A stretch of DNA of 32,651 bases from Nostoc sp. PA-18-2419. GTDB taxonomy: Bacteria > Cyanobacteriota > Cyanobacteriia > Cyanobacteriales > Nostocaceae. Both the position numbers and the translations under genes were made by a program. How positions within the stretch are numbered: the first letter of the stretch is position 1; every line of letters begins with the position of its first letter. Below, piece by piece: positions 14,723 through 28,547 of the stretch. The notes under the pieces were generated by a model. That model saw only the letters and a program-made list of their open reading frames with translations. It made no database searches and was not told the DNA's origin. The DNA is taken from positions 71,845 to 104,495 of the forward strand of contig NZ_SZNH01000009.1 in assembly GCF_005869855.1 (NCBI RefSeq), in the 5' to 3' direction.

Positions 14723-17278
14723 ATGTTAGACGGAAACTACTCTATGGAACCAGATAAACTGGCCAGTTTTAAAGAGTACGGTGAATTCATCCTCCGGAAG
14801 ATAGATTCTGTACCTCAATACCCTTCAAAACAAGAAGATTGGGTTCCGGCTAGCCTTGATGAGTGTCTCCGTCGTCTTTTAGAAGCTGCCGAGAAAACTC
14901 TAAATCTCGCTACTTCGCCTGTGAAAATTGGTGTGATGGGAGAATTTAGCAGCGGCAAAACTTTACTTTTAGGCAGTTTGATTGGATATGCAGATGCTTT
15001 ACCAATAAGTGAAAACCCAACTACAGGGAATGTTACCGCGCTTCACATTATACCCGAAGATGACTTTGCAACAACTCAACTCAGCAATTTTACAGTAGAA
15101 TATCTTTCCCATGAAGGGGTACATGAGTGTCTGCGCTTCATGCTGGGAGAAGCCAATAAGCGGACAACAGCAGCAGGACTTCCAGCTATACCAGTGTCAA
15201 AGCTCAACTCTGGCAAAGATATTATTGATTGGTGTGAGGAAGCATGGAACAGTTCTAACAATTTAGAATTACGGTATTTACTCAGAGAATTAGTATTATT
15301 CCTGCGGGCTTATCAAGCTTATGGGGAAATGATGTGTGGTGGACGCTACCAGCTCGATCCGCTCACCGCCCGCGAAGGGCTACAGCTAGTAGAACAGCCA
15401 ATGGCCATCCAAACTCTCAGCTTTGAAGATTTACCGCCAGCGCATATCCGGTTACCGAGTCCACCCCAGAGGTTACCAACGAAATTATTACAAAACAGCT
15501 TTCCACTGATTCGCCGCGTAGATATTGATGTCAAAATATCACGGGAAATTTGGGATGTTACGGGTGCTGCTAAATTTATTTTGATTGATTTTCCGGGATT
15601 GGGAGCTGCTAATTCTGGGGCTAGAGATACCTTTTTGTCGCTGCGAGAATTAGCAGAAGTACAGACGATTTTGGTGTTGCTAAATGGTAAATCTCCGGGA
15701 AGCGATCGCGCTAATAAAATCTTTACGATGATGCAGCAGCAGCGACCTGGACAAGACTTGAAAGATTTAATTCTCGTGGGTGTAGGTCGCTTCGATCAAC
15801 TGCCTTTAGAAAGTGAGGGAGGTGAAAGAGAACTCGACCAATTGACTGAAGATAGGGATTTGCACGAGGAAATTGTTTTCCAAAAACTCAAAGTTCTGCA
15901 AACCACCATTGAGGGTGCAGAGGCGTTTACAACCCAAAAAGACCGCATTGTTTTACTGTCGCCACTCTTAGGATTGGCTGATTTAGCAAAACGTTCGAGT
16001 AAAGTCAAAGCAGGTTCACCAGAGTTTTTAACTAACTTAGATTATCCTGATTATTTAGACAGATCTAAACGGCTACAAGATAAATGGGGACGCTTAAGTC
16101 AACGGCTATTAGAATCTGATACTCGCAGCTATTTGGGCAGACAATTAGGTTACTTTGCTCAAGATGGTAGTCTTGCCAAGTTACGGGAATTAATTCAAAA
16201 CCACGTCACTACTCATGGTTTAAAGCAATTGTATGAAGATACTAAAAGAGCTGCCGATGTGGTGAGTCAGCAGCAAGATCATTTGAAAGATATCATAGAC
16301 GAAATTCACGAGCAAGGTATCCCCACAGGAGACAGTCCTGCTTTTATTGAGTTGCGTTTTCTGGTAGAAACTTTAGACAAAATCTACAGGAATTTTCAAA
16401 AAGATTTAGGGAAAGAACCCCTTAAAGACCGACGTGGTGTTGTTGTCAGCGATATAGTTAAAGACGAACTTACCTTTAAAATACTTAATTGGAACCAGTG
16501 GACTTTATTATTTAATAAAGTCAATAATGGTACTATCACCCTCGCTGAATCCAAAGGTGCTGCTGGCAAATTATTTGATAGAGGAAACCGCTTCAATACT
16601 TCTTTACCTACCAAGAGTGATGAGTTTTATCCAGTATTTGAAAAAACCGTTAAAGAAGTAGAAGAATTTGCCCGCGATCGCATTCGTCAGGCTGTGGGAG
16701 ATTTGTTAAATCAATTGTCAAATCAAGTAGCTCCAGAACGCGACCAATTAAAAGTAATTCTCTACCCAGAAATGGAACAAGAAATTGAATCAAAATTTGG
16801 TGTGGAAGAAGCCGACCTTTTTTATAAGTTATTACTAGGATGTGACCCTAACGAATGGAAAGAAGCAATTATTTCAGAAATTAATCACAAAGACAAATTC
16901 GTTGCACCCGAAATCATTTTTCCCTTAGCCCGTCAAGATGAGAAACATAATGTAGGCCAAATCTTTGACTGGGCACCAGAAAAAAGCCAAGGCTTACCTA
17001 GATCCACTAACCATCAACTTTTAATACTGCGACTGCGAGATGAAATTACTGCTAGCGCCAGCCTTCATCTTGTGCAGTATGTTAGTGAGGTAAATCAGCA
17101 AATTAATTTTGAACTAGAAGGTATTTTGGATCAAATTATTCCGAGTCTGCAAAACCTTTCTAAAAAAGAAGCATTACTGAGATATTTAACGGCTGGTGAC
17201 TTACCATCTGAGATAGCAGTTCCTACTTGGTTGCAGATTCTTTCAGACATTGCCGCCGTTTCTTATTTAGATGTTTGA
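14723..17278 (+). CDS. Dynamin-like large GTPase
   Basis: An 851-residue GTPase. P-loop GEFSSGKT at residues 73-80, a switch-I threonine in NPTTGNVT (about 99-106) and switch II DFPG at 289-292 (FILIDFPGLGA). The guanine-specificity motif is unusual: the expected (N/T)KxD position reads VGRFD (354-358). About 185 residues separate switch I from switch II, far more than in classical dynamins, so there is a large insert in the G domain. The C-terminal 450 residues are charged and helical (for example DVVSQQQDHLKDIIDEIHEQ), as expected for a stalk; no transmembrane segment is obvious. It precedes the Hsp70-like gene by 121 bp on the same strand. SrfC-type virulence-associated GTPases have a comparable design, an inference only. 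Confidence 0.75.
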   Translation: MLDGNYSMEPDKLASFKEYGEFILRKIDSVPQYPSKQEDWVPASLDECLRRLLEAAEKTLNLATSPVKIGVMGEFSSGKTLLLGSLIGYADALPISENPTTGNVTALHIIPEDDFATTQLSNFTVEYLSHEGVHECLRFMLGEANKRTTAAGLPAIPVSKLNSGKDIIDWCEEAWNSSNNLELRYLLRELVLFLRAYQAYGEMMCGGRYQLDPLTAREGLQLVEQPMAIQTLSFEDLPPAHIRLPSPPQRLPTKLLQNSFPLIRRVDIDVKISREIWDVTGAAKFILIDFPGLGAANSGARDTFLSLRELAEVQTILVLLNGKSPGSDRANKIFTMMQQQRPGQDLKDLILVGVGRFDQLPLESEGGERELDQLTEDRDLHEEIVFQKLKVLQTTIEGAEAFTTQKDRIVLLSPLLGLADLAKRSSKVKAGSPEFLTNLDYPDYLDRSKRLQDKWGRLSQRLLESDTRSYLGRQLGYFAQDGSLAKLRELIQNHVTTHGLKQLYEDTKRAADVVSQQQDHLKDIIDEIHEQGIPTGDSPAFIELRFLVETLDKIYRNFQKDLGKEPLKDRRGVVVSDIVKDELTFKILNWNQWTLLFNKVNNGTITLAESKGAAGKLFDRGNRFNTSLPTKSDEFYPVFEKTVKEVEEFARDRIRQAVGDLLNQLSNQVAPERDQLKVILYPEMEQEIESKFGVEEADLFYKLLLGCDPNEWKEAIISEINHKDKFVAPEIIFPLARQDEKHNVGQIFDWAPEKSQGLPRSTNHQLLILRLRDEITASASLHLVQYVSEVNQQINFELEGILDQIIPSLQNLSKKEALLRYLTAGDLPSEIAVPTWLQILSDIAAVSYLDV

Positions 17279-17399
17279 CGCGTAAAAATTTTCATGGATT
17301 TGGGATAGGTAGTTTATTTCCGCACCCCTATACTAGGTTGGGCTACGATTACACTCTAAATAACAAAGTTAGCGTTCAACAGAACAATTTTATACAATA

Positions 17400-20369
17400 A
17401 TGAACCTTTTTCAATTGAACAATTATACTGAGAAACCAAACGAGAAGCAACAAAAAAGATTTCCGGGATGGTTTGCATTAGATTTTGGTACGTCAAATTC
17501 TACTGTCACACTTTTCGATCCAATTGAAGTACCGATCGCCGAAATTTTACCCAAAGAACAAGAAATGCGATTGCGCGATCGCTTATCCCAATGGCTCAGT
17601 TCTCCTGCTGCTGTAGCTTTACCAGATGTCAGTAATGAGGATTGGGAAAAGTTTATTATAGAAATAAGCAAAAACTTGGAAATAGAACCAACTAAATTAA
17701 GTGAAGTTTTTGAAACTGATAACAAAGAACGATTTTTAGAAGCGATTCGTCAGATTGAACTTTGTTTAGGAAATAGTGAAAGATTCCGTCGGGCTGTCAG
17801 CAAAAAACTCTATCAAATCTATCATGAGGTGTTCCGGGTTCCTACCTTGGAATCGCAAAATCTGATTCCAGTTGTGTTAGATATCGACCGCCGTGAAACA
17901 GAAATTCCTAGCGAGTCGGAAATTTCTCATTTACCCGAATTGCAACTGCGGATGGGTAGGGAAGCTAGAGATAATAGAAAAAAAGCGATTGCCCAAGGTA
18001 CAAGCGGTACTTTAAAGGAAATTATTAGTAGGTTTCATCATTCACCCAAACGCTATTTTGGTCAGGAGCGAGCATTTTCAGTTATTTTGGATGGTCAGGA
18101 AGAAACAATTACCGCCAAAGAACTAATTCAATCTGCTTGGGCACATTTAATAAAGTTAACCGAAGACTACCGTCAACGAGCGCAACGCAGGTTTTCAGAA
18201 GGGAATTTGTTAACAGCAGTTGTTACCTACCCAACAGTCGCTCCACCTGTTGTTCGCAAAGAAGTTAAAGAATTAGTTGAGCAGTTGGCGATTGATGATG
18301 TCCAAACTGCTTATGATGAAGCTGTTTCTGTGGCGATATTCTTTCTGTGGCGAGAATTTGGTGGTAATTTAAATATTGGTATCGAATCATTTAAAACTCG
18401 TTGTCGCCAAACTGGAAATAAATGGTCACAAAATGTCCTCGTTTTAGATATCGGCGGCGGCACCACAGACTTAGCTTTGATTGAGTTAACTTTGTCAGAT
18501 GAAACCCCAGCTTTTGCTGGTTATGAAGACCGGGGTTTGGGAGGACGTTATTATAAACTGACTCCCAAACTATTAGGCTCATCTGGTCATTTACAGTTAG
18601 GCGGTGAATTAATTACACTACGAATCTTTCGACTTTTGAAAGTAGTGATCACTGATTTTTTATTAACAGCAGTCAGTACAGGTGACCTCGAAAGCGAAAA
18701 GCTAGAAGATTTAATTAACTCTGAATTAAACGAGCGTTTTTTAGAACAAGGCAAATTCAAAACTGGCAGTCTTTTAAAATGTCTGGATAAAGAAAATCCC
18801 GAAGGTGATATAGCTTATAAAGATGCTTTAGATACTGCCGAGAAAGTATTGCCCACTCGTTGGCAACAAGCACCACAACGCCTACAAACATTTTATCTTC
18901 TGTGGGATTATGCAGAAGCAGCTAAACTGAAACTTGGGCAAAAACTACCGACTGATGATTCTCTATTAACCTTTACACTTTCCGAACAAGAAATTTCCGA
19001 ACTTCTTAGCCAAAGCGCCGTTAAATTGCAAGTTAAAGACCCAAATAACATCTGCGTCACCTTGGACAATCAGCAATTTGAACGAGCTGCAGTTTCCGGA
19101 ATTAAAGAAGCGATTGGGATTGCTAAAGGATTGATGGAAAGCCGTTTGCGTCCCGATAATCTTATTAACGATTCTTGGAATTCTCAAAAAGTTGATTGGT
19201 TAATTTTGTCTGGTAAAACTTGTAATCTTGACTTAGTACAGCGCCAAATCTATCAAGAATTTAGTAAGTCACCATATTTTGTCTGGAATCCAGAACGGAT
19301 TACTTTTGTTCTCGAATTTACCAAATTAGCCACCTCTGCTGGTGCTTGCTATGCCGAAAAATTACGAAGATTGAGATTTGACCCCGAAGAATCTAAAAAT
19401 TTACTGCGTAAAGGAGCCAATCAGTTAGAAATTGATGTTAAAAATTTGTTTTATTATTTGCCCTGTAGCTTCAAACGCAAAACCCAAAGCAACGATTTAT
19501 TGACTATCTTCAAAGCCGGTCAAGAACTTTATCAACTAGCACCTTGGGAAACTGTTGCCAAAGTTCGTACTCCTTGGCAAGGAATACAATTAATTAATAT
19601 TATCTACCGCCAAGATTACGAAGAAGGAGATTTACGACTTTGGGGTAGCTTCGACGGCAAAAACCTGATGAATAAATTAGGAATACAAGAAGCAGAATTT
19701 ATCAAAAAAATAAAAATTCAGTTTGAAATTGACCAAAGTCTCGAATTTAAGGTGCTGCTTTGTCAGGGAAATCCCCATTATTTAATTGATATTCCTGGCA
19801 TTGATTTGGGAGCAGTGGTTTCAGAAACATCAGTGTTATTTGCAGAGGGAAAATTGAAGTGGAATATCGCTGTAGAACGCTCTAATAAAGACTTAAGTGA
19901 TGGTGATATTGCTGTTAATGTTATTGAGTCTGCAACTGTGGATCAACCAGATGCTTATCATCTAGTATTTGAAGTCGAAAATGATGTTCAATCATTCCAA
20001 AAATTTCATTATTTGCGCGATGGTGTTACACAACCAGGAATCGGATTAATTAGTAATCCCTTACCTCCCTTCCCGAAAACTGGACAACATACCTTTTATA
20101 TTTATCAAACAGACGCCGAAACCCAAATCAAAAAATGGATACGAATTGGCGCACTTAGTAAACCAGACATCACAACAGATTACCCTTGTCAATATCATGT
20201 GACTCTTGACAACCAGGGTATTTTACGGATGCACGCAGGTGAAGTGCCTTATTGGACATCTACAAATCAAGAATCTCTCAAACAAGAAGGATGTGTTTAT
20301 ATTGCTGAATTAGAATTACAACCTAATGAAGTTGATAAAGAACGCGATCCATTTTGCGGTATACATTAG
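17400..20369 (+). CDS. Hsp70/actin-fold ATPase, SrfB-like
   Basis: A 989-residue protein with an actin/Hsp70 ATPase core. Phosphate-1 motif LDFGTSNSTVTLFD is at residues 27-40, phosphate-2 motif VLDIGGGTTDLALIE near 348-362, and the adenosine motif WLILSGKTCNLDLVQ near 600. The 310-residue gap between phosphate motifs is much longer than in DnaK (about 180), implying a large insert. The final 350 residues do not resemble the DnaK substrate-binding domain and read as beta-rich. Length and layout recall SrfB proteins, which in proteobacteria are encoded beside SrfC GTPases; here the partner GTPase is directly upstream. The pair probably works together, perhaps on membranes or protein complexes, but the function is unknown. 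Confidence 0.75.
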   Translation: MNLFQLNNYTEKPNEKQQKRFPGWFALDFGTSNSTVTLFDPIEVPIAEILPKEQEMRLRDRLSQWLSSPAAVALPDVSNEDWEKFIIEISKNLEIEPTKLSEVFETDNKERFLEAIRQIELCLGNSERFRRAVSKKLYQIYHEVFRVPTLESQNLIPVVLDIDRRETEIPSESEISHLPELQLRMGREARDNRKKAIAQGTSGTLKEIISRFHHSPKRYFGQERAFSVILDGQEETITAKELIQSAWAHLIKLTEDYRQRAQRRFSEGNLLTAVVTYPTVAPPVVRKEVKELVEQLAIDDVQTAYDEAVSVAIFFLWREFGGNLNIGIESFKTRCRQTGNKWSQNVLVLDIGGGTTDLALIELTLSDETPAFAGYEDRGLGGRYYKLTPKLLGSSGHLQLGGELITLRIFRLLKVVITDFLLTAVSTGDLESEKLEDLINSELNERFLEQGKFKTGSLLKCLDKENPEGDIAYKDALDTAEKVLPTRWQQAPQRLQTFYLLWDYAEAAKLKLGQKLPTDDSLLTFTLSEQEISELLSQSAVKLQVKDPNNICVTLDNQQFERAAVSGIKEAIGIAKGLMESRLRPDNLINDSWNSQKVDWLILSGKTCNLDLVQRQIYQEFSKSPYFVWNPERITFVLEFTKLATSAGACYAEKLRRLRFDPEESKNLLRKGANQLEIDVKNLFYYLPCSFKRKTQSNDLLTIFKAGQELYQLAPWETVAKVRTPWQGIQLINIIYRQDYEEGDLRLWGSFDGKNLMNKLGIQEAEFIKKIKIQFEIDQSLEFKVLLCQGNPHYLIDIPGIDLGAVVSETSVLFAEGKLKWNIAVERSNKDLSDGDIAVNVIESATVDQPDAYHLVFEVENDVQSFQKFHYLRDGVTQPGIGLISNPLPPFPKTGQHTFYIYQTDAETQIKKWIRIGALSKPDITTDYPCQYHVTLDNQGILRMHAGEVPYWTSTNQESLKQEGCVYIAELELQPNEVDKERDPFCGIH

Positions 20370-20674: not shown

Positions 20675-21307
20675 ATGAGTAACAACACTGCGAGAAATGA
20701 TCTCATGATAGACAAATTAGCCCAGACTGAATATCCAATTGAAGATTTGTTGCGTCAACGCTGGAGTCCTCTAGCTTTTTCAGATCGAATGGTTGAACCA
20801 GAAAAGTTACACAGTGTCTTAGAAGCAGCACGCTGGGCAGCTTCTTCTTTCAACGAGCAACCGTGGAGCTTTATTGTTGCAACTTCAGACAATCAAACTG
20901 AATTTGAGCGTTTAGTGAGTGTTCTTGCAGAGGCGAACCAAGATTGGGCGCGGAATGCTCCTATACTGATGCTCTCAGTCGCAAAACTCCATTTTGAGCG
21001 TAATGGCAAGCAAAACCGCCACGCTTTTCACGATGTTGGCGCTGCATCTGCCACCTTGGCGATTCAAGCAGCCGCTGTTGGGTTATTTATTCACCAAATG
21101 GCTGGGTTTGATGTTGCCAAAGCCCAACAGATTTACAGTATTCCTTCAGGTTATGAGCCAGTCGCGGCGATCGCCTTGGGTTACATCGGAGATCCACAAA
21201 CCCTGTCTGAAAAGTTGCTGCAACGAGAGAAAGCCCTCCGTACCCGCAAGCCCTTAGAAGAATTTGTGTTTTCTGGCAGTTGGAACCAAACTTTTCCACT
21301 GACATAG
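20675..21307 (+). CDS. Nitroreductase family FMN protein
   Basis: A 210-residue FMN-dependent nitroreductase. The N-terminal R-x-S loop (LLRQRWSPLAFSDR), the ARWAASSFNEQPWSFIV stretch around residue 60 (FMN ring and phosphate contacts) and the C-terminal AIALGYIGDP are all typical. The family reduces quinones, nitro compounds or flavin-like substrates with NAD(P)H and usually forms homodimers. The sequence HDVGAASATLAIQAAAVGL is the central dimer helix. Substrate unknown. ATG 20675 has no strong ribosome site; a second ATG at 20705 is possible. It lies 236 bp ahead of the Dabb-domain gene. Confidence 0.88.
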   Translation: MSNNTARNDLMIDKLAQTEYPIEDLLRQRWSPLAFSDRMVEPEKLHSVLEAARWAASSFNEQPWSFIVATSDNQTEFERLVSVLAEANQDWARNAPILMLSVAKLHFERNGKQNRHAFHDVGAASATLAIQAAAVGLFIHQMAGFDVAKAQQIYSIPSGYEPVAAIALGYIGDPQTLSEKLLQREKALRTRKPLEEFVFSGSWNQTFPLT

Positions 21308-21542: not shown

Positions 21543-21845
21543 ATGCCTCTAATTCAACATATAGTTTTGTTAAAATTTAAAGCACAAACCCCTGCTGAAA
21601 AGATTGCAGATATATTTAGACATCTCCAAGAAATCACGAAATTGATTCCTGGTATCACCTACTTTACAGGTGGTAGATATTCCAGCAATGAAGGCTTGAA
21701 TCAGGGCTATACGCACGGATTTTTAATGACTTTTGAGAGCGTTGCTGCCCGCGATGCCTATTTACCTCATCCTATTCATGAAAAAGTCAAAGTCGAAATT
21801 TTATCGTGTATTGATGATGTGATCGCATTTGATCTTGAAGGTTGA
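21543..21845 (+). CDS. Stress-responsive alpha/beta barrel (Dabb) protein
   Basis: A 100-residue single Dabb domain. It starts with the diagnostic IQHIVLLKFK strand and continues through IPGITYFTGGRYSSN and HGFLMTFES to the final HEKVKVEILSCIDDVIAFDL. Dabb proteins form dimeric ferredoxin-like barrels; members range from plant stress proteins to small enzymes, so no reaction can be given. The start follows AGGAAATCTTAG at reasonable spacing. Located between the nitroreductase and a MITE-like element. Confidence 0.87.
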   Translation: MPLIQHIVLLKFKAQTPAEKIADIFRHLQEITKLIPGITYFTGGRYSSNEGLNQGYTHGFLMTFESVAARDAYLPHPIHEKVKVEILSCIDDVIAFDLEG

Positions 21846-22335: not shown

Positions 22336-23445
22336 ATGCAGTATTTACGTCAATTATTAGAAGTAGAAAACTCTCAATTAGCTCATTTATTGCGGTTTAC
22401 TCTCCACGGACTCGAAGCTACTTTAAATCAGGCTCGCATAGAATTTCCATTAGATCCAGGAGTTAAGGTATGCGATGAGGTTCTGCAAGAAATTCACAGC
22501 TTATTGCAACCTAAGCCTACACTTTTACAGCCAGATATTGGTTGGCAAGATACCATTATACCATCCCAAAATCAATTAAAACTCAGTCATTTAAAAGATG
22601 CTTTTGATTCTGATTCAGAACTTAATTATTATCTAGGTAATTCCCAACTTCAAAGCCAAACTGACTCAGATTTGTGGAATGAAATTCAACGCAAGCTATT
22701 ACGGATACCAGAAGAATTGGCTGCATCTTGGCGACAGCGCAGCTTAGATATGGCTCAAGAAGTTGGTGCGAACGCTGATATTTCTAATCTCTATCAACTT
22801 CCCTTTATCCGCGATGAAATTATCTACCCCGGACTTAGTGGTACTATTCAGACTAAGGGCTTGAGCTTATATCAACAAGCATTTTCAAATTCTCAAATTA
22901 TTCAGAGTAATGCATCCGATGTGCCAGCGGGATTCCTATTTTTATATATGAATTTTATCGAAATAGACTCAGATTTACATCATGCTTTAAAGAGCGTTTT
23001 TAGCTTTGATGTTATTTCCTTACACTCTAAACTAGAACAGCGAAATGAATACGTCAATGCTTTAAGTGAACGCTGCCAACGTATCAAAAAAGCTGAAGAA
23101 AATGCCGATCCCCTGTCTATTTTGCGTAGCTGGATTGACATGGATGAAGCAATACATTCTTTGGTTTTTGTACCACCCGCTGAACGATATTCTTGGTGGG
23201 GTAAGCTGCAACACGAATCACGACGCATCCTGAAGAAAGTCGCCGATCAAGCTATGAATGCAGGTTGTGAAGTCCGAATTCGCCAATTATCTGGACTTTA
23301 TGCAGATATCTGTGCTTCATCCAAAGATGACTTACAACTAGATTTTGGTGGTACTCCTGGGGAAGTATTAACTTGTCTGCGGGTGTATGCACGAATGAAC
23401 CAGGAAGAATCTCCAGGGCGTGTAATATTTCGCTCATCACGCTAG
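22336..23445 (+). CDS. Conserved-looking protein, unknown function
   Basis: A 369-residue soluble protein that I do not recognise. It is mainly helical by composition, with no signal peptide, membrane segment or obvious catalytic motif. Notable stretches are a leucine-rich N-terminus (LRQLLEVENSQLAHLLRFTL), a WNEIQRKLLRIPEELAASW segment near 115, a charged helix EQRNEYVNALSERCQRIKKA near 235 and a C-terminal LDFGGTPGEVLTCLRVY. It lies downstream of the GTPase/Hsp70-like pair on the same strand, separated by two unrelated genes and a MITE. It could be a third component of that system (SrfABC operons have three genes) displaced by insertions, but no sequence feature shows this. AAAGGT precedes the ATG. 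Confidence 0.6.
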   Translation: MQYLRQLLEVENSQLAHLLRFTLHGLEATLNQARIEFPLDPGVKVCDEVLQEIHSLLQPKPTLLQPDIGWQDTIIPSQNQLKLSHLKDAFDSDSELNYYLGNSQLQSQTDSDLWNEIQRKLLRIPEELAASWRQRSLDMAQEVGANADISNLYQLPFIRDEIIYPGLSGTIQTKGLSLYQQAFSNSQIIQSNASDVPAGFLFLYMNFIEIDSDLHHALKSVFSFDVISLHSKLEQRNEYVNALSERCQRIKKAEENADPLSILRSWIDMDEAIHSLVFVPPAERYSWWGKLQHESRRILKKVADQAMNAGCEVRIRQLSGLYADICASSKDDLQLDFGGTPGEVLTCLRVYARMNQEESPGRVIFRSSR

Positions 23446-24083: not shown

Positions 24084-24950
24084 ATGCTCAAAAGTCCTCT
24101 CCGATATCCTGGTGGTAAGTCAAAAGCAATAAATCAAATAGTTGAATACTTACCAGAAAATTTTTCCGAATTTAGAGAACCTTTTGTCGGTGGTGGTTCT
24201 GTATTTATTTACTTAAAACAAAAATTTCCTAATATCAAAATTTGGATTAACGATTTAAACTGCGAACTCTTTTTATTCTGGAAATTTGCCCAATCTGATA
24301 TAGCTCAGTTAGTTAAAGAAATTCGCTATATTAAAGTTAAGTACACAAATGGTAAATCACTGTATACAGAATTGACTAGTATAGATGTCAACAATTTATC
24401 TGATTTTGAAAGAGCCGTTCGCTTTTTTGTCCTGAATAGAATTACGTTTTCCGGCACTGTAGAATCAGGCGGTTTTTCACAAGAAGCTTTCCATAAACGT
24501 TTTACGGATTCTTCAATAGAAAGGTTGGAAAAGTTAGAAAATATTCTAGAAAAAAATGTAATAATTACTAATTTAGATTATAGCTATTTATTACAAAAAG
24601 AAGGTAAAAAAGTATTTTTATTTTTAGATCCACCATATTTTAGTGCTATTAAATCAAAGCTTTATGGTAAGGATGGTGACTTGCACATCTCATTTCAACA
24701 TCAAAGATTTGCTGAACTTTTGCAATCATGTCATCATCGCTGGCTAATCACTTACGACGATTCCCCACAAATTAGAGAAAATTTTCAATGGGTTAATATT
24801 TCAGAGTGGGAATTACAATATGGGATGAATAATTACAAGCAGAGTGGTGCTGCTAAGGGAAAAGAGTTATTTATTACTAATTACAAACATAAACTCGATT
24901 GTAAGAAAAAATTAAAAAATCAGAATCTTGTGAATCCGGCTTTGCAGTAA
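24084..24950 (+). CDS. Dam-type (D12 class) adenine-N6 DNA methyltransferase
   Basis: A 288-residue class-alpha adenine methyltransferase. The N-terminal RYPGGK (7-12) is the family start, motif I is FVGGGSVF (34-41), motif IV is DPPY (182-185) and the region around [15 protein letters not shown] is the target-recognition side. No restriction endonuclease lies beside it, so it appears solitary. Members of this group often methylate GATC, the core of the HIP1 octamer abundant here, and solitary GATC methylases are known in Anabaena; specificity is inferred. It may act in mismatch repair or genome maintenance. The gene is more AT-rich than its neighbours. Confidence 0.88.
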
Positions 24951-25053
24951 AGCCTCGAGCTTTGAACTGAACTTTGATGAAAGCCTATTTTTCGGTAGGA
25001 TAGCTCCCATGCCCTGCAACGTAGCTACACCCTACAACACACAAACCCTAGCG

Positions 25054-26130
25054 ATGACAACTTCTCCAATCCCTGCACAAGAATCCTATTATGTTCTGCT
25101 GCAACAATTAATAGATGGCCAATCATTGTCGCGTACTCAAGCTGCTGAATTAATGCAAGGTTGGCTTAGTGAATCTGTTCCTCCAGAGTTATCAGGAGCA
25201 ATTTTAACAGCACTGAACTTTAAAGGCGTTTCTGCCGACGAATTAACTGGCATGGCTGAAGTATTACAATCGCAGTCAATGCTGGAGACTGGGCAAAAAT
25301 CCACCCAATCTCCAATCCCTAATCCCCAATCCTTAATTGATACCTGCGGCACTGGTGGAGATGGAGCGTCAACTTTTAATATTTCCACGGCAGTTGCCTT
25401 TGTTGCGGCAGCGTATGGGGTACCTGTTGCCAAACACGGTAATCGTTCAGCCTCAAGTCTCACCGGAAGCGCCGATGTTTTGGAAGCTTTGGGTGTAAAT
25501 TTGAGTGCGCCTAGTGAAAAGGTACAAGCTGCTTTACACGAAGTGGGGATCACTTTCTTGTTTGCCCCTGGCTGGCATCCAGCACTCAAAGCAGTTGCCT
25601 CATTGCGACGAACTCTTAAGGTACGAACAGTGTTTAATTTACTTGGCCCCTTAGTAAATCCCTTGCGTCCAACTGGGCAAGTGGTGGGATTATTCACTCC
25701 TAAACTTTTGGCAACGGTTGCTCAAGCTTTACAGAATTTGGCCAAGGAAAAAGCAATTGTGCTGCACGGGCGAGAAAAACTCGATGAAGCTGGGTTAGGA
25801 GATTTAACTGACTTAGCGGTGTTATCAGAGGGAGAAGTGCAGTTAACTAGTATTAATCCCCTAGATTTGGATCTAACTCCTGCTCCCATAGGTATGCTTC
25901 GGGGTGGGGATGTGCAAGAGAATGCAGCGATTCTCAAGGCTGTACTCCAAGGTAAGGGAACTCAAGCACAACAGGATGTAGTAGCTTTGAATGCCTTGTT
26001 GGCATTGCAAGTAGCGGGAGTAATACCATTACTCGATCACGCTCAAGGTATTAAAGTTGCTAAGGATATCCTACAAAGTGGCGCGGCTTGGACGAAGTTG
26101 GAGCAGTTAGTTCAATTTCTAGGGAATTGA
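25054..26130 (+). CDS. trpD: Anthranilate phosphoribosyltransferase
   Basis: A 358-residue TrpD, the second step of tryptophan synthesis (anthranilate plus PRPP to phosphoribosyl anthranilate). The PRPP-binding DTCGTGGDG (96-104), KHGNRSASS (127-135), [10 protein letters not shown] and [16 protein letters not shown] are all intact. An insert of about ten residues (QSPIPNPQS) encoded by heptamer repeats sits just before the PRPP loop. I chose ATG 25054; an in-frame ATG at 25009 would add 15 residues with no family support. The gene's last 71 bp overlap the end of the convergent protease gene. No other trp gene is in the window, which is usual for cyanobacteria. Confidence 0.95.
25304..25331 (+). 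repeat. Heptamer tandem repeat inside trpD
   Basis: Four contiguous 7-base units, CCCAATC, TCCAATC, CCTAATC and CCCAATC. The same unit occurs just before carA (27338-27386) and after it. Here it is translated, encoding approximately residues 84-93 of TrpD in a loop ahead of the PRPP-binding motif. Confidence 0.85.
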
Positions 26131-27115
26131 TTTGTGATCGCAATTGCGGGCGAAACTCTACCACATTACGTTTGATTGTGACATCGTAATTGCCAAAAAA
26201 GTCATGTCCTAAAAGTCCGGTCTCGAGTTCCGTACCAGCGATCGCTACTGGTACTCGATTCACCTTCACCCCTCCAAGTGCCATTGAATCAACATAGCCC
26301 ACAGGAAATTCTACAGATCTGGAACTGGCGGTGTTTGCCTTAGCTCTCCCTACTGGCACTATTCCCAAAGCATTTGCCATCTCTTGCGTGATCACAGTAC
26401 CACTGGCTCCTGTATCTACAATCATTTCAAACTTTTGCTGACCATTGAAGGTGACTTCCACAATTGGCGTACCACCAGCGCGCCTTTTAATCGGCGCTGT
26501 AAACACTGCTTGATCTGGAATTACCACTGCTGATGAAGGTCTTTGTGATTCTGGTGGTAATAGTTTTTTTTGTACAGGAATCGTTATCGGTGAGCTAAAC
26601 CTTGGTATAGTTGCTGTTTGGGGAACTACAACTACTATTTTTCGGGGTTCCTTAACTACTATGGGGCGAGGATTAGCTTTTTGTTTGGCATATTTGATTT
26701 GGCGCTGATATTCTGTGATTTTCGATTGAGCGAAGGCAAACTCTGGGGTTTGTCGATGCACTTTTCGCATCAGAGCGATCGCATCTTGGTATTGACTCGC
26801 GACCAAATTCCAATCATCTGGAGATTGAGCAGATTGGCTAATACTCCAAGCGCTAACAGCTTTATCTAACGCCAACTCAAAAACACTAGGTTCAGTTTCA
26901 GACGGCTCTTGCGGCTGTGCTTCTGGGGTAGCTGCTGATGTTGGTGGTTTGGTAGTGGGAGGCTGTACTGATGCCAAATCCCCAACTGAGGCGGGTTGCT
27001 CGTTGCCAGCAGTCGTAGTGTCTCGTTTGTCTTCACTACAGGCAACAGTCAAAACCGCTAGAGCGCTGAGTACAAAAAAAATTAGGGTTGCACGGGATAA
27101 AAAAGTCGGAAGCAT
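26060..27115 (-). CDS. Lipoprotein with retropepsin-like aspartic protease domain
   Basis: A 351-residue exported protein. The signal peptide ends in a lipobox (VLTVAC, Cys26), predicting a lipid anchor. Residues 30-80 are a Pro/Thr/Glu linker, 80-150 a helical part ([20 protein letters not shown], then [20 protein letters not shown]), and 210-335 a clan AA protease with the active-site motif [10 protein letters not shown] (Asp234). The flap and second hydrophobic-hydrophobic-Gly ([16 protein letters not shown]) fit the single-domain, dimeric retropepsin-like family found in many cyanobacteria. Substrates are unknown. I chose ATG 27115, which gives a normal signal peptide; a start at 27196 would add 27 residues. 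Its stop lies 71 bp inside trpD on the other strand. Confidence 0.85.
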
Positions 27116-27284
27116 AATTAATATTAACTGCCCAAGCTCCTGCAAATCCACTCTCGCGTACCTATTTAAAGATTGTAAGTAAAAGACAACAGACATCAGG
27201 CAACAAGCAATTTTAATTTTTAATTAACAACCTGAAAATTTGTAGTCGCTCAACTTATGGCAAAATTGAGGATCGCAGTCTTGG

Positions 27285-27386
27285 GAAGTAGGGAGTAGAG
27301 AATAAGCAGTAGGGACTAAAGAAAAGTTTTCTCAATGCCCAATCCCTAGACCCAATTCCCAGTAACCAATCCCCAATCCCCAATCT
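27285..27386. repeat. Heptamer-type repeats touching the carA start codon
   Basis: An AGTAGGGA-rich segment (27286-27315) is followed by CCCAATC-type units from 27338 to the base before ATG 27387. The last two units are CCCCAATCCCCAATCT. The tract replaces the region where a ribosome binding site would be expected. Confidence 0.75.
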
Positions 27387-28547
27387 ATGTTCTTGTCTGA
27401 GGCAATACCAGCTTTACTTGTTTTAGCAGATGGAACCGCTTATCATGGTTGGTCTTTCGGTGCTACGGGAACCGCCATCGGAGAAGTGGTATTCAACACT
27501 GGTATGACTGGCTATCAAGAAGTACTAACCGATCCTAGTTACTGCGGTCAGATTGTGATTTTTACTTATCCAGAATTGGGAAATACTGGCGTCAATCCTG
27601 AAGATGAGGAATCAGACCGACCCCAAGTGCGGGGTGTGATCGCCCGTAATATTTGTCATCGACCAAGTAACTGGCGATCAACACAATCCTTACCTGACTA
27701 CCTCAAACAGCATCAAATACCAGCTATCTATGGCATTGATACCCGCGCCCTCACCCGGAAAATTCGCATGTTCGGAGCCATGAACGGTGGCATTTCCACG
27801 ACTATTTTGGATCAAGGGGAATTATTAGAGCAGGTGCAGGCAGCTCCTTTGATGACAGGATTAAATCTAGTTCGTGAAGTGACTACACCAACGACTTATC
27901 AATGGTCAGATCCCACAATTCCAGCTTGGGAATTCAAGCTAGAAACTGCGAATAATAATATTGAAGAACCCTTTATCGTTGTTGCTCTTGACTTTGGCAT
28001 CAAACGCAATATTTTGCGTCGCTTAACCAGTTACGGTTGTCGGGTAATTGTTGTGCCTGCTGATACGCCATCAGAGGAAATTCTCAACTATAATCCTGAT
28101 GGTGTTTTTCTTTCTAATGGGCCTGGCGATCCTGCTGCTGTCAGCGAAGGAATTGCAACTGCCAAAGCGCTGCTGCTGAGTCAAAAACCCATCTTTGGGA
28201 TTTGTATGGGACATCAAATTTTAGGTCATGCTTTGGGAGCAGAAACCTATAAACTCAAATTTGGTCACCGTGGTTTGAATCAGCCTGCGGGTTTACAACA
28301 AAGGGTAGAAATTACCAGTCAAAACCATAGTTTTGCCATCGATCAAGATTCTCTACCTGCGACAGTTGTGGAAGTTAGCCACCTGAATTTAAATGATCGC
28401 ACTGTTGCCGGGGTACGTCACAAGTCTCTGCCTATATTCTCCGTACAGTATCACCCAGAAGCCAGTCCTGGACCTCACGATGCTGATTACTTGTTTGAGC
28501 AATTTGTTCAAGCCATGCGAATAGCACGTCAAGGTGATGGGGACTAG
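27387..28547 (+). CDS. carA: Carbamoyl-phosphate synthase small subunit
   Basis: A 386-residue glutaminase subunit of carbamoyl-phosphate synthase, supplying ammonia to CarB for arginine and pyrimidine synthesis. The N-terminal domain has [17 protein letters not shown] and [13 protein letters not shown]. The class I amidotransferase domain has SNGPGDP, nucleophile Cys273 (GICMGHQ), and His356/Glu358 ([10 protein letters not shown]). Length is normal. The start ATG 27387 directly abuts heptamer repeats and has no purine-rich ribosome site, so translation initiation may be inefficient or use another mechanism; TTG 27393 is an alternative. carB is not in the window. Confidence 0.95.

Follow-up and report, generated by a model that had tools for sequence, protein, structure and literature searches.

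A conserved three-gene cassette of Nostoc and related cyanobacteria encodes a dynamin-like GTPase, a divergent Hsp70-type ATPase and a third protein

Results

Three linked genes at the locus

A 32,651-nucleotide stretch of the genome of Nostoc sp. PA-18-2419 (assembly GCF_005869855.1, contig NZ_SZNH01000009.1, positions 71,845 to 104,495, forward strand), hereafter the window, contains a gene cassette encoding a dynamin-like GTPase, an ATPase of the Hsp70/actin fold and a third protein, c2. A first-pass annotation, made from the sequence alone, had described the first two as adjacent same-strand genes, and the open reading frames (ORFs), their positions, their sizes and the motifs quoted for them were confirmed (Table 1). 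These are real genes, as the Hsp70-like gene was found in 53 of the 53 genomes of a genus sample (in pieces in G028 and G118) and the GTPases of five other genus genomes compared share 89-94% identity with that of the window; for the main genus copies of the Hsp70-like protein, identity to the window is 86-97%.

Conservation of the two genes as neighbours, which the annotation had set as its own test, was evident from two sets of loci. With broken copies included, 38 of 39 mapped loci have the GTPase gene next to the Hsp70-like gene on the same strand, the exception (L129) being a broken copy without a GTPase. The second set consisted of 58 shorter loci with flanks of 1.5 kb, partly from the same genomes; in 50 of them the same strand carries the end of the GTPase gene 78-1404 bases upstream, and the flanks of the other eight are too short. 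In some loci (e.g. L070 and L128) the two genes are separated by short ORFs, and L062 and L117 have overlapping genes.

The annotation had, however, missed a third gene. In 17 of 21 loci (20 plus the window), ORF clustering placed the gene for c2, a protein of about 370 aa, downstream of the one for the Hsp70-like protein. It is present in 34 of the 39 mapped loci (missing in L060, L065, L067, the broken L066 and L127, where the contig ends), and within 1.5 kb downstream in 55 of the 58 shorter ones (exceptions L001, L002 and L028). By this clustering and gene order the conserved unit comprises three genes rather than two. In the window c2 has been pushed away from the Hsp70-like gene by the insertion of a nitroreductase gene and a Dabb-domain gene; of 94 loci tested, no others than those of the window's genome (L001) and its closest relative (L002, 96%) have these two genes at this place. 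Trees of the three cassette proteins are broadly concordant, recovering the same main groups. Fischerella-type copies cluster with those of families f2 and f5 and not with the window's group, a grouping suggestive of ancient paralogy or of transfer.

No Pfam, NCBIfam or PADLOC family matched c2 at a useful score, and its profile search of solved structures gave a weak match to Rv3357/RelJ (0.75). Matches to EAD9 (2 of 16 members, best 0.0046) and EAD10 (0.2) were weak as well and were not used.

Table 1. Features of the cassette and of the insertion within it (window coordinates).
Feature	Position	Strand	Length (aa)	Basis or remark
Dynamin-like GTPase	14723..17278	+	851	G1 GEFSSGKT, G2 TTGNVT, G3 DFPG, G4-like GRFD
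Hsp70/actin-fold ATPase with large inserts	17400..20369	+	989	Motifs; beta-rich C-terminal third in low-confidence model
Nitroreductase gene, between Hsp70-like gene and c2	20675..21307	+		Probably not a cassette member
Dabb-domain gene, inserted with nitroreductase	21543..21845	+		Probably not a cassette member
c2, third conserved cassette gene	22336..23445	+	369	ORF clustering across loci

Further along the window, positions 24084-28547 hold downstream genes common to the loci of several relatives: a D12-class adenine methyltransferase, a glycosyl transferase family 3 protein, an aspartyl protease and the carbamoyl-phosphate synthase small chain.

The first protein is a GTPase of predicted dynamin fold

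The description of the first protein as a dynamin-like GTPase was borne out by profile and by fold. The window protein scores 28.4 bits against Dynamin_N (Pfam PF00350; cut-off 27), and all 16 members of the GTPase family that were scanned matched this model at E<=1 (best 3.4e-9); the divergent L062 protein is under the cut-off (20.3). An AlphaFold2 model built from 16 sequences (mean predicted local distance difference test score (pLDDT) 78.7, predicted template modelling score (pTM) 0.58) has long helices after the head, and a Foldseek search of the PDB with it returned SynDLP first (1.7e-13), BDLP next (5e-10), and then mitofusins, Mx proteins and LeoA; every one of the 45 matches at E<=0.001 is a dynamin-superfamily structure. 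Judged on the model, membership in the dynamin superfamily is clear. The arrangement of the GTPase head and stalk is uncertain, because the fold matches have template modelling (TM) scores of at most 0.33 by query length and large root-mean-square deviations. SynDLP and the BDLP of Nostoc punctiforme are the top fold matches, but their alignments with the window protein show 13-15% identity. Sequence searches of solved structures gave weak matches only (best 0.41), and a profile search of solved structures gave none.

The GTPase motifs were counted by text pattern in 32 proteins, seven of the 39 loci being left out. G2, G3 and the G4-like motif are present in all 32, and G1 is canonical in 30, to which L064 is added by alignment; it is degenerate in L062. 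Two proteins outside the 32 were also inspected: the L125 GTPase has canonical motifs, and that of L117 has neither a canonical G1 nor DFPG. The GTPase domain also has a weak profile likeness to LeoA of the Eleos system (1.1e-4 to 2.5e-6; 1.1e-4 for PADLOC LeoA in the window), although the NCBIfam LeoA model NF041922 gave the window protein 13.5 bits, far below its cut-off of 325.

The second protein is a divergent Hsp70-type ATPase

The actin/Hsp70 fold assigned to the second protein also held. DFGTSNST, DEA, DIGGGTTD and LSG do not vary across the 14 rows of an alignment of Hsp70-like proteins with identities as low as 44%; among 36 proteins of a broader set, itself chosen on GGGTTD, text patterns recovered DFGTSNST in 31, DEA in 32 and LSG(K/Q)T in 34. 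About 320 residues separate phosphate motifs 1 and 2, consistent with the large inserts that had been noted. The window protein is no ordinary DnaK, an outcome that had been named as refuting the prediction, since it scores 9.9 bits against Hsp70 PF00012 (cut-off 20.6). Searches of solved structures gave weak matches, to DnaK by sequence (0.11) and to MreB by profile (0.085). A PADLOC match to PDC-M61B was weak too (0.032 in the window, 2.6e-4 in L125) and was not used.

A low-confidence AlphaFold2 model of this protein, with residues 1-50 and most of 146-328 under pLDDT 50, matched DnaK/BiP structures first in Foldseek (5.7e-10). Among the 50 listed of 136 matches at E<=0.001, 48 are Hsp70-family structures by title and two have uninformative titles (a ciliary complex chain and a modified protein). 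Within these 50, structures with the nucleotide-binding domain (NBD) and the beta part of the substrate-binding domain (SBDbeta) (5.7e-10 to 2.5e-6) mostly outrank those with the NBD only (2.1e-6 to 4.5e-5), as judged by title and length. Because of this ranking an SBDbeta-like C-terminal domain is plausible, so that the earlier statement that neither protein has a known C-terminal domain stands by Pfam but perhaps not by fold. At the other end of the protein, the annotation had overlooked an N-terminal beta-type region of about 130 aa, present in 30 of the 39 mapped loci. The window copy lacks it, as do all three resident genus loci mapped (the window, L070 and L075), and the open frames of the resident genus copies compared (<=1019 aa) are too short to fit it; in L062 an ORF of its own encodes it.

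Among Pfam families, SrfB (PF07520; 1.6e-5) matches the Hsp70-like protein best, over residues 294-367 only and at 23.6 bits, below the cut-off of 27.1. By Pfam cut-off the window protein is thus a divergent Hsp70-type ATPase and neither an ordinary DnaK nor SrfB. A distant relation to SrfB and SrfC had been raised, and it can be extended to the whole cassette: the SrfABC system is described as widespread in gamma-, alpha- and betaproteobacteria (PMC6950479), and the cassette could be its cyanobacterial version, with SrfB as the Hsp70-like protein, SrfC as the GTPase and SrfA as c2. Such an identity would explain why PF07520 is the top Pfam match and why its matches, in 42 of 386 cyanobacterial genomes and all in the window's family, all fall on the Hsp70-like gene; like SrfB, this protein has an ATPase core with large inserts, and both systems comprise three genes, one of them coding for about 990 aa. 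The likeness is nevertheless local, as the matches span 72-118 of 992 profile positions around a generic ATPase motif and are above the cut-off in six of the 386 genomes. SrfC (PF10139) was not among the 23 families matched at E<=1 by the 16 GTPases, and a PF10139 search of the window's genome gave no match, the controls likewise giving none; c2, moreover, has no named relative. On these comparisons a distant kinship with SrfB is retained, kinship with SrfC is unsupported, and the equation of the cassette with SrfABC seems to us very doubtful.

The cassette is family-wide and tracks with HetR

Occurrence was examined in 386 genomes from across the cyanobacteria and in 349 genomes of the order, family membership being read from the lists of non-matching genomes, which are apparently in kinship order and open with other families. 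In the first sample the GTPase and Hsp70-like genes turned up in one and the same set of 43 genomes, every one from the window's family (a GTPase match at chance level, 4.6e-4, in G272 outside the family is left out). We read this as presence of both genes in 43 of 43 sampled family genomes, of which one, G378, has fragments only. In the order sample the Hsp70-like gene was found in 48 of 48 family genomes and in 16 others from eight further families, and outside the family its occurrence is patchy; the total of 64 carriers leaves out a weak match (6.5e-4) in G195, outside the family. Carrier totals include the broken copies of G378, G507 and G549, and three or more of the 64 copies are broken. 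A scan of named genomes with two short motifs gave at least four loci, two of which (L081 and L082) encode other Hsp70-like proteins; no GTPase of the cassette kind stood out in their ORF lists.

Among the matches listed are Fischerella muscicola PCC 7414 and a Rhizonema, both heterocyst formers, and because of these named relatives the window's family is most likely a heterocyst-forming one. HetR_C, a filament marker, was used in place of a heterocyst-specific marker model and was above its cut-off in 201 of the 349 order genomes. It was found in 63 of 64 carriers against 138 of 285 non-carriers (Fisher test, 3.8e-16), and in 15 of the 16 non-family carriers against the same 138 of 285 (3.9e-4), relatedness being ignored in both tests. 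The sole carrier without HetR_C over the cut-off is G052.

This distribution would suit a set of developmental genes for heterocyst or hormogonium formation that remodels membranes at septa or heterocyst envelopes, as the gene occurs in every one of the 48 genomes of a most likely heterocyst-forming family and is strongly associated with HetR. Yet the gene is also carried by the 16 genomes outside the family, all but one of them HetR-positive, HetR occurs in non-heterocystous filaments too, and no expression evidence for such a role was found in those parts of the literature that were available. We consider a developmental function quite improbable. Presence throughout the family and the genus points to a resident role, and from these counts the resident copy appears to behave as a core gene of complex filamentous cyanobacteria.

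Operon contexts in relatives

A different setting was found in L060, a second copy of the pair in genome G016 and the only such version in the 53 genus genomes. Here a Trypsin_2 peptidase, an EAD1-VMAP-M1-iSTAND protein, an AAA protein, a CoxE-type vWA protein, the GTPase and the Hsp70-like protein are encoded in this order by co-directional genes separated by at most 128 bases or overlapping. The best models for the AAA gene are generic AAA ones, its MoxR type being inferred from position. L060 thereby combines an iSTAND protein with an EAD, a CoxE-type vWA protein, a variable effector and, by position, a MoxR ATPase, as in the iSTAND MoxR-vWA ternary systems, where variable effectors, including caspase-like peptidases, form the reported output (PMC7159879).

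The L060 GTPase has an extra N-terminal domain of 230 aa, for which G000 (the window's own genome) and G016 were searched. Both further copies lie directly after an L060-like vWA gene (44% and 47% identity to the vWA protein of L060). In G000 (locus L114, contig C1, near 358776-359384) the domain is fused to a lysozyme domain (muramidase M1, 5.7e-26), and in G016 to a domain that looks caspase-like by its motifs, with no PDB sequence match. The vWA gene and the lysozyme fusion of L114 are likely, from their sequences, to represent the output of a ternary conflict operon. Because the 230-aa domain recurs after vWA genes in fusion with other putative effector domains, the dynamin-Hsp70 pair of L060 looks, by analogy, to sit in the effector position.

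The window locus differs from such systems: no MoxR, vWA or iSTAND gene is among its 12 scanned genes, the three of the cassette included, and blast with the MoxR, vWA and iSTAND proteins of L060 gave no match in the window. Across the 39 loci, the same searches picked up vWA relatives at L060, L062 and L117 alone, and those of MoxR and iSTAND at no locus but L060; in L062 and L117 the vWA gene immediately precedes that of the GTPase.

These contexts bear on the possibility that the pair is an antiviral or cell-suicide effector, triggered by infection either directly or through MoxR-vWA-iSTAND switches, so that membranes are disrupted or walled off and the filament is protected. The place of the pair directly after the four upstream genes of L060, the recurrence of its 230-aa domain with lysozyme and caspase-looking partners after homologous vWA genes, the weak LeoA likeness of the GTPase and the patchy spread beyond the family all speak for it. 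The case is nonetheless built on a single locus, L060; the loci L114 and L115 (3.6 kb) are too short to reveal MoxR or iSTAND genes, and the scanned window genes include none of the switch components. The resident gene, found in all 48 family genomes of the order sample, is also unlike typical mobile defence genes, and tblastn of the Hsp70-like protein gave no match in 72,556 plasmid records, from which near relatives of the window were perhaps left out. We regard this account as possible but on the unlikely side.

Another context was seen in L125, which with L132 (G598) forms a cluster of twelve genes in the same direction: Hsp70-TPR, thioredoxin, 2Fe-2S ferredoxin, two unassigned ORFs, two dynamins, a GrpE-like gene, the cassette and PP2C. 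The GrpE-like gene matches PF01025 at 2.5e-9.

Discussion

The pairing of a dynamin with a DnaK-type protein is not new. In 2018 a 'chaperone clade' was defined among cyanobacterial dynamins, their genes being followed by one for a DnaK-domain protein, and the role suggested was the sorting of proteins as membranes are remodelled (PMC5827413). The cassette resembles this clade in having a dynamin-domain protein followed by a DnaK-domain protein, a likening made by description. The earlier view that no function has been assigned in cyanobacteria therefore still holds in the literature found, a proven function being absent from the 2018 description as far as it was seen, but the pairing itself had been reported and a role suggested. 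BDLP belongs to another clade of that study, 'Tandem B', in which it lies next to another dynamin (PMC5827413).

In the sections of PMC5827413 available the description concerns the pair, with no third gene, N-terminal beta-type region, distribution or conflict-operon context, and no mention of the third gene or of the conflict-operon link was found in the sections available of PMC5827413, PMC7159879, PMC8195603, PMC6950479 and PMC9950537. As far as searched, the third gene, the near-universality, the vWA, GrpE and PP2C contexts and the iSTAND effector slot of L060 are new. The DO-GTPase/GAP1-N2 systems have similar partners across their loci (GTPase, Hsp70, GrpE, PP2C and vWA) but a different GTPase family, and are reported to be nearly absent from cyanobacteria (PMC7159879). 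A DO-GTPase reading of the cassette was rejected, the GTPase being a Dynamin_N protein and no GAP1 being named in the Pfam scans made.

We infer a machine of three components, in which the dynamin-like protein works with its own divergent Hsp70-type ATPase and with the adaptor-like c2, a proposal that we put at a little short of an even chance. The dynamin would bind GTP, assemble on a membrane and bend, seal or fuse it; for BDLP, membrane assembly after GTP binding has been reported (PMC5827413). The Hsp70-type ATPase would spend ATP on loading, taking apart or resetting the dynamin polymer or a client on it. We read it as the resetting or targeting chaperone of the polymer because the two genes are adjacent, co-occur and are found once with a GrpE-like factor, an exchange factor of this type probably assisting the ATPase in one lineage. 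c2 might join the GTPase to the Hsp70-type ATPase or select the target. In cyanobacteria of the heterocyst lineages the machine would serve a resident core function, probably in membrane repair or stress in filaments, and the same module could serve as the output of a conflict operon. The annotation had proposed a nucleotide-driven machine acting on membranes or complexes; this fits a dynamin fold consistently paired with an Hsp70-type ATPase, and its functional part stays conditional here.

Several observations weigh against the three-component machine. The gap between the GTPase and Hsp70-like genes is often several hundred bases, so that they need not share one transcript. c2 may be dispensable, because no c2 gene was seen close to the pair in L060, L065, L067, L028 and the broken L066. 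Copies are broken or frame-split in L066 (G378), L124 (G549), L129 (G507) and L070 (G118), which reflects either tolerated loss in some strains or sequencing errors. In the trees, L060, L062, L120 and L125 differ in position from one protein to another and several branches are long, with joins of long branches in the GTPase tree flagged as unsure. The model of the Hsp70-like protein is poor (pLDDT 60.8, pTM 0.39), and the GrpE linkage comes from one cluster, with a profile match confined to positions 91-163. Finally, in the vWA-linked GTPases of L062 (2702-5287) and L117 (5785-8388) the P-loop has TKT in place of GKT. GTP hydrolysis may be altered or lost in this branch, and because of these P-loops and the missing DFPG of L117, GTP turnover may not be needed at every locus.

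L060 suggests that conflict systems can take the module under their control. A bolder version of the three-component machine would make it a chaperone-gated dynamin executor of filament-level immunity or damage control in multicellular cyanobacteria, the resident core copy protecting or sealing membranes inside cells or between them and conflict operons having captured the pair as a plug-in effector; we think this unlikely. If it were true, a dynamin-Hsp70 module would join the known outputs of iSTAND ternary systems. The L060 operon connects bacterial dynamins with predicted multicellular immune switches in a concrete way that can be tested.

For complex cyanobacteria, the sampled genomes of the window's family tie a dynamin GTPase to a dedicated Hsp70-type ATPase in every case. 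Because the unit is present in every sampled genome of the family, the in vivo role of a bacterial dynamin and the resetting of its polymer would become testable through one three-gene cassette in tractable strains.

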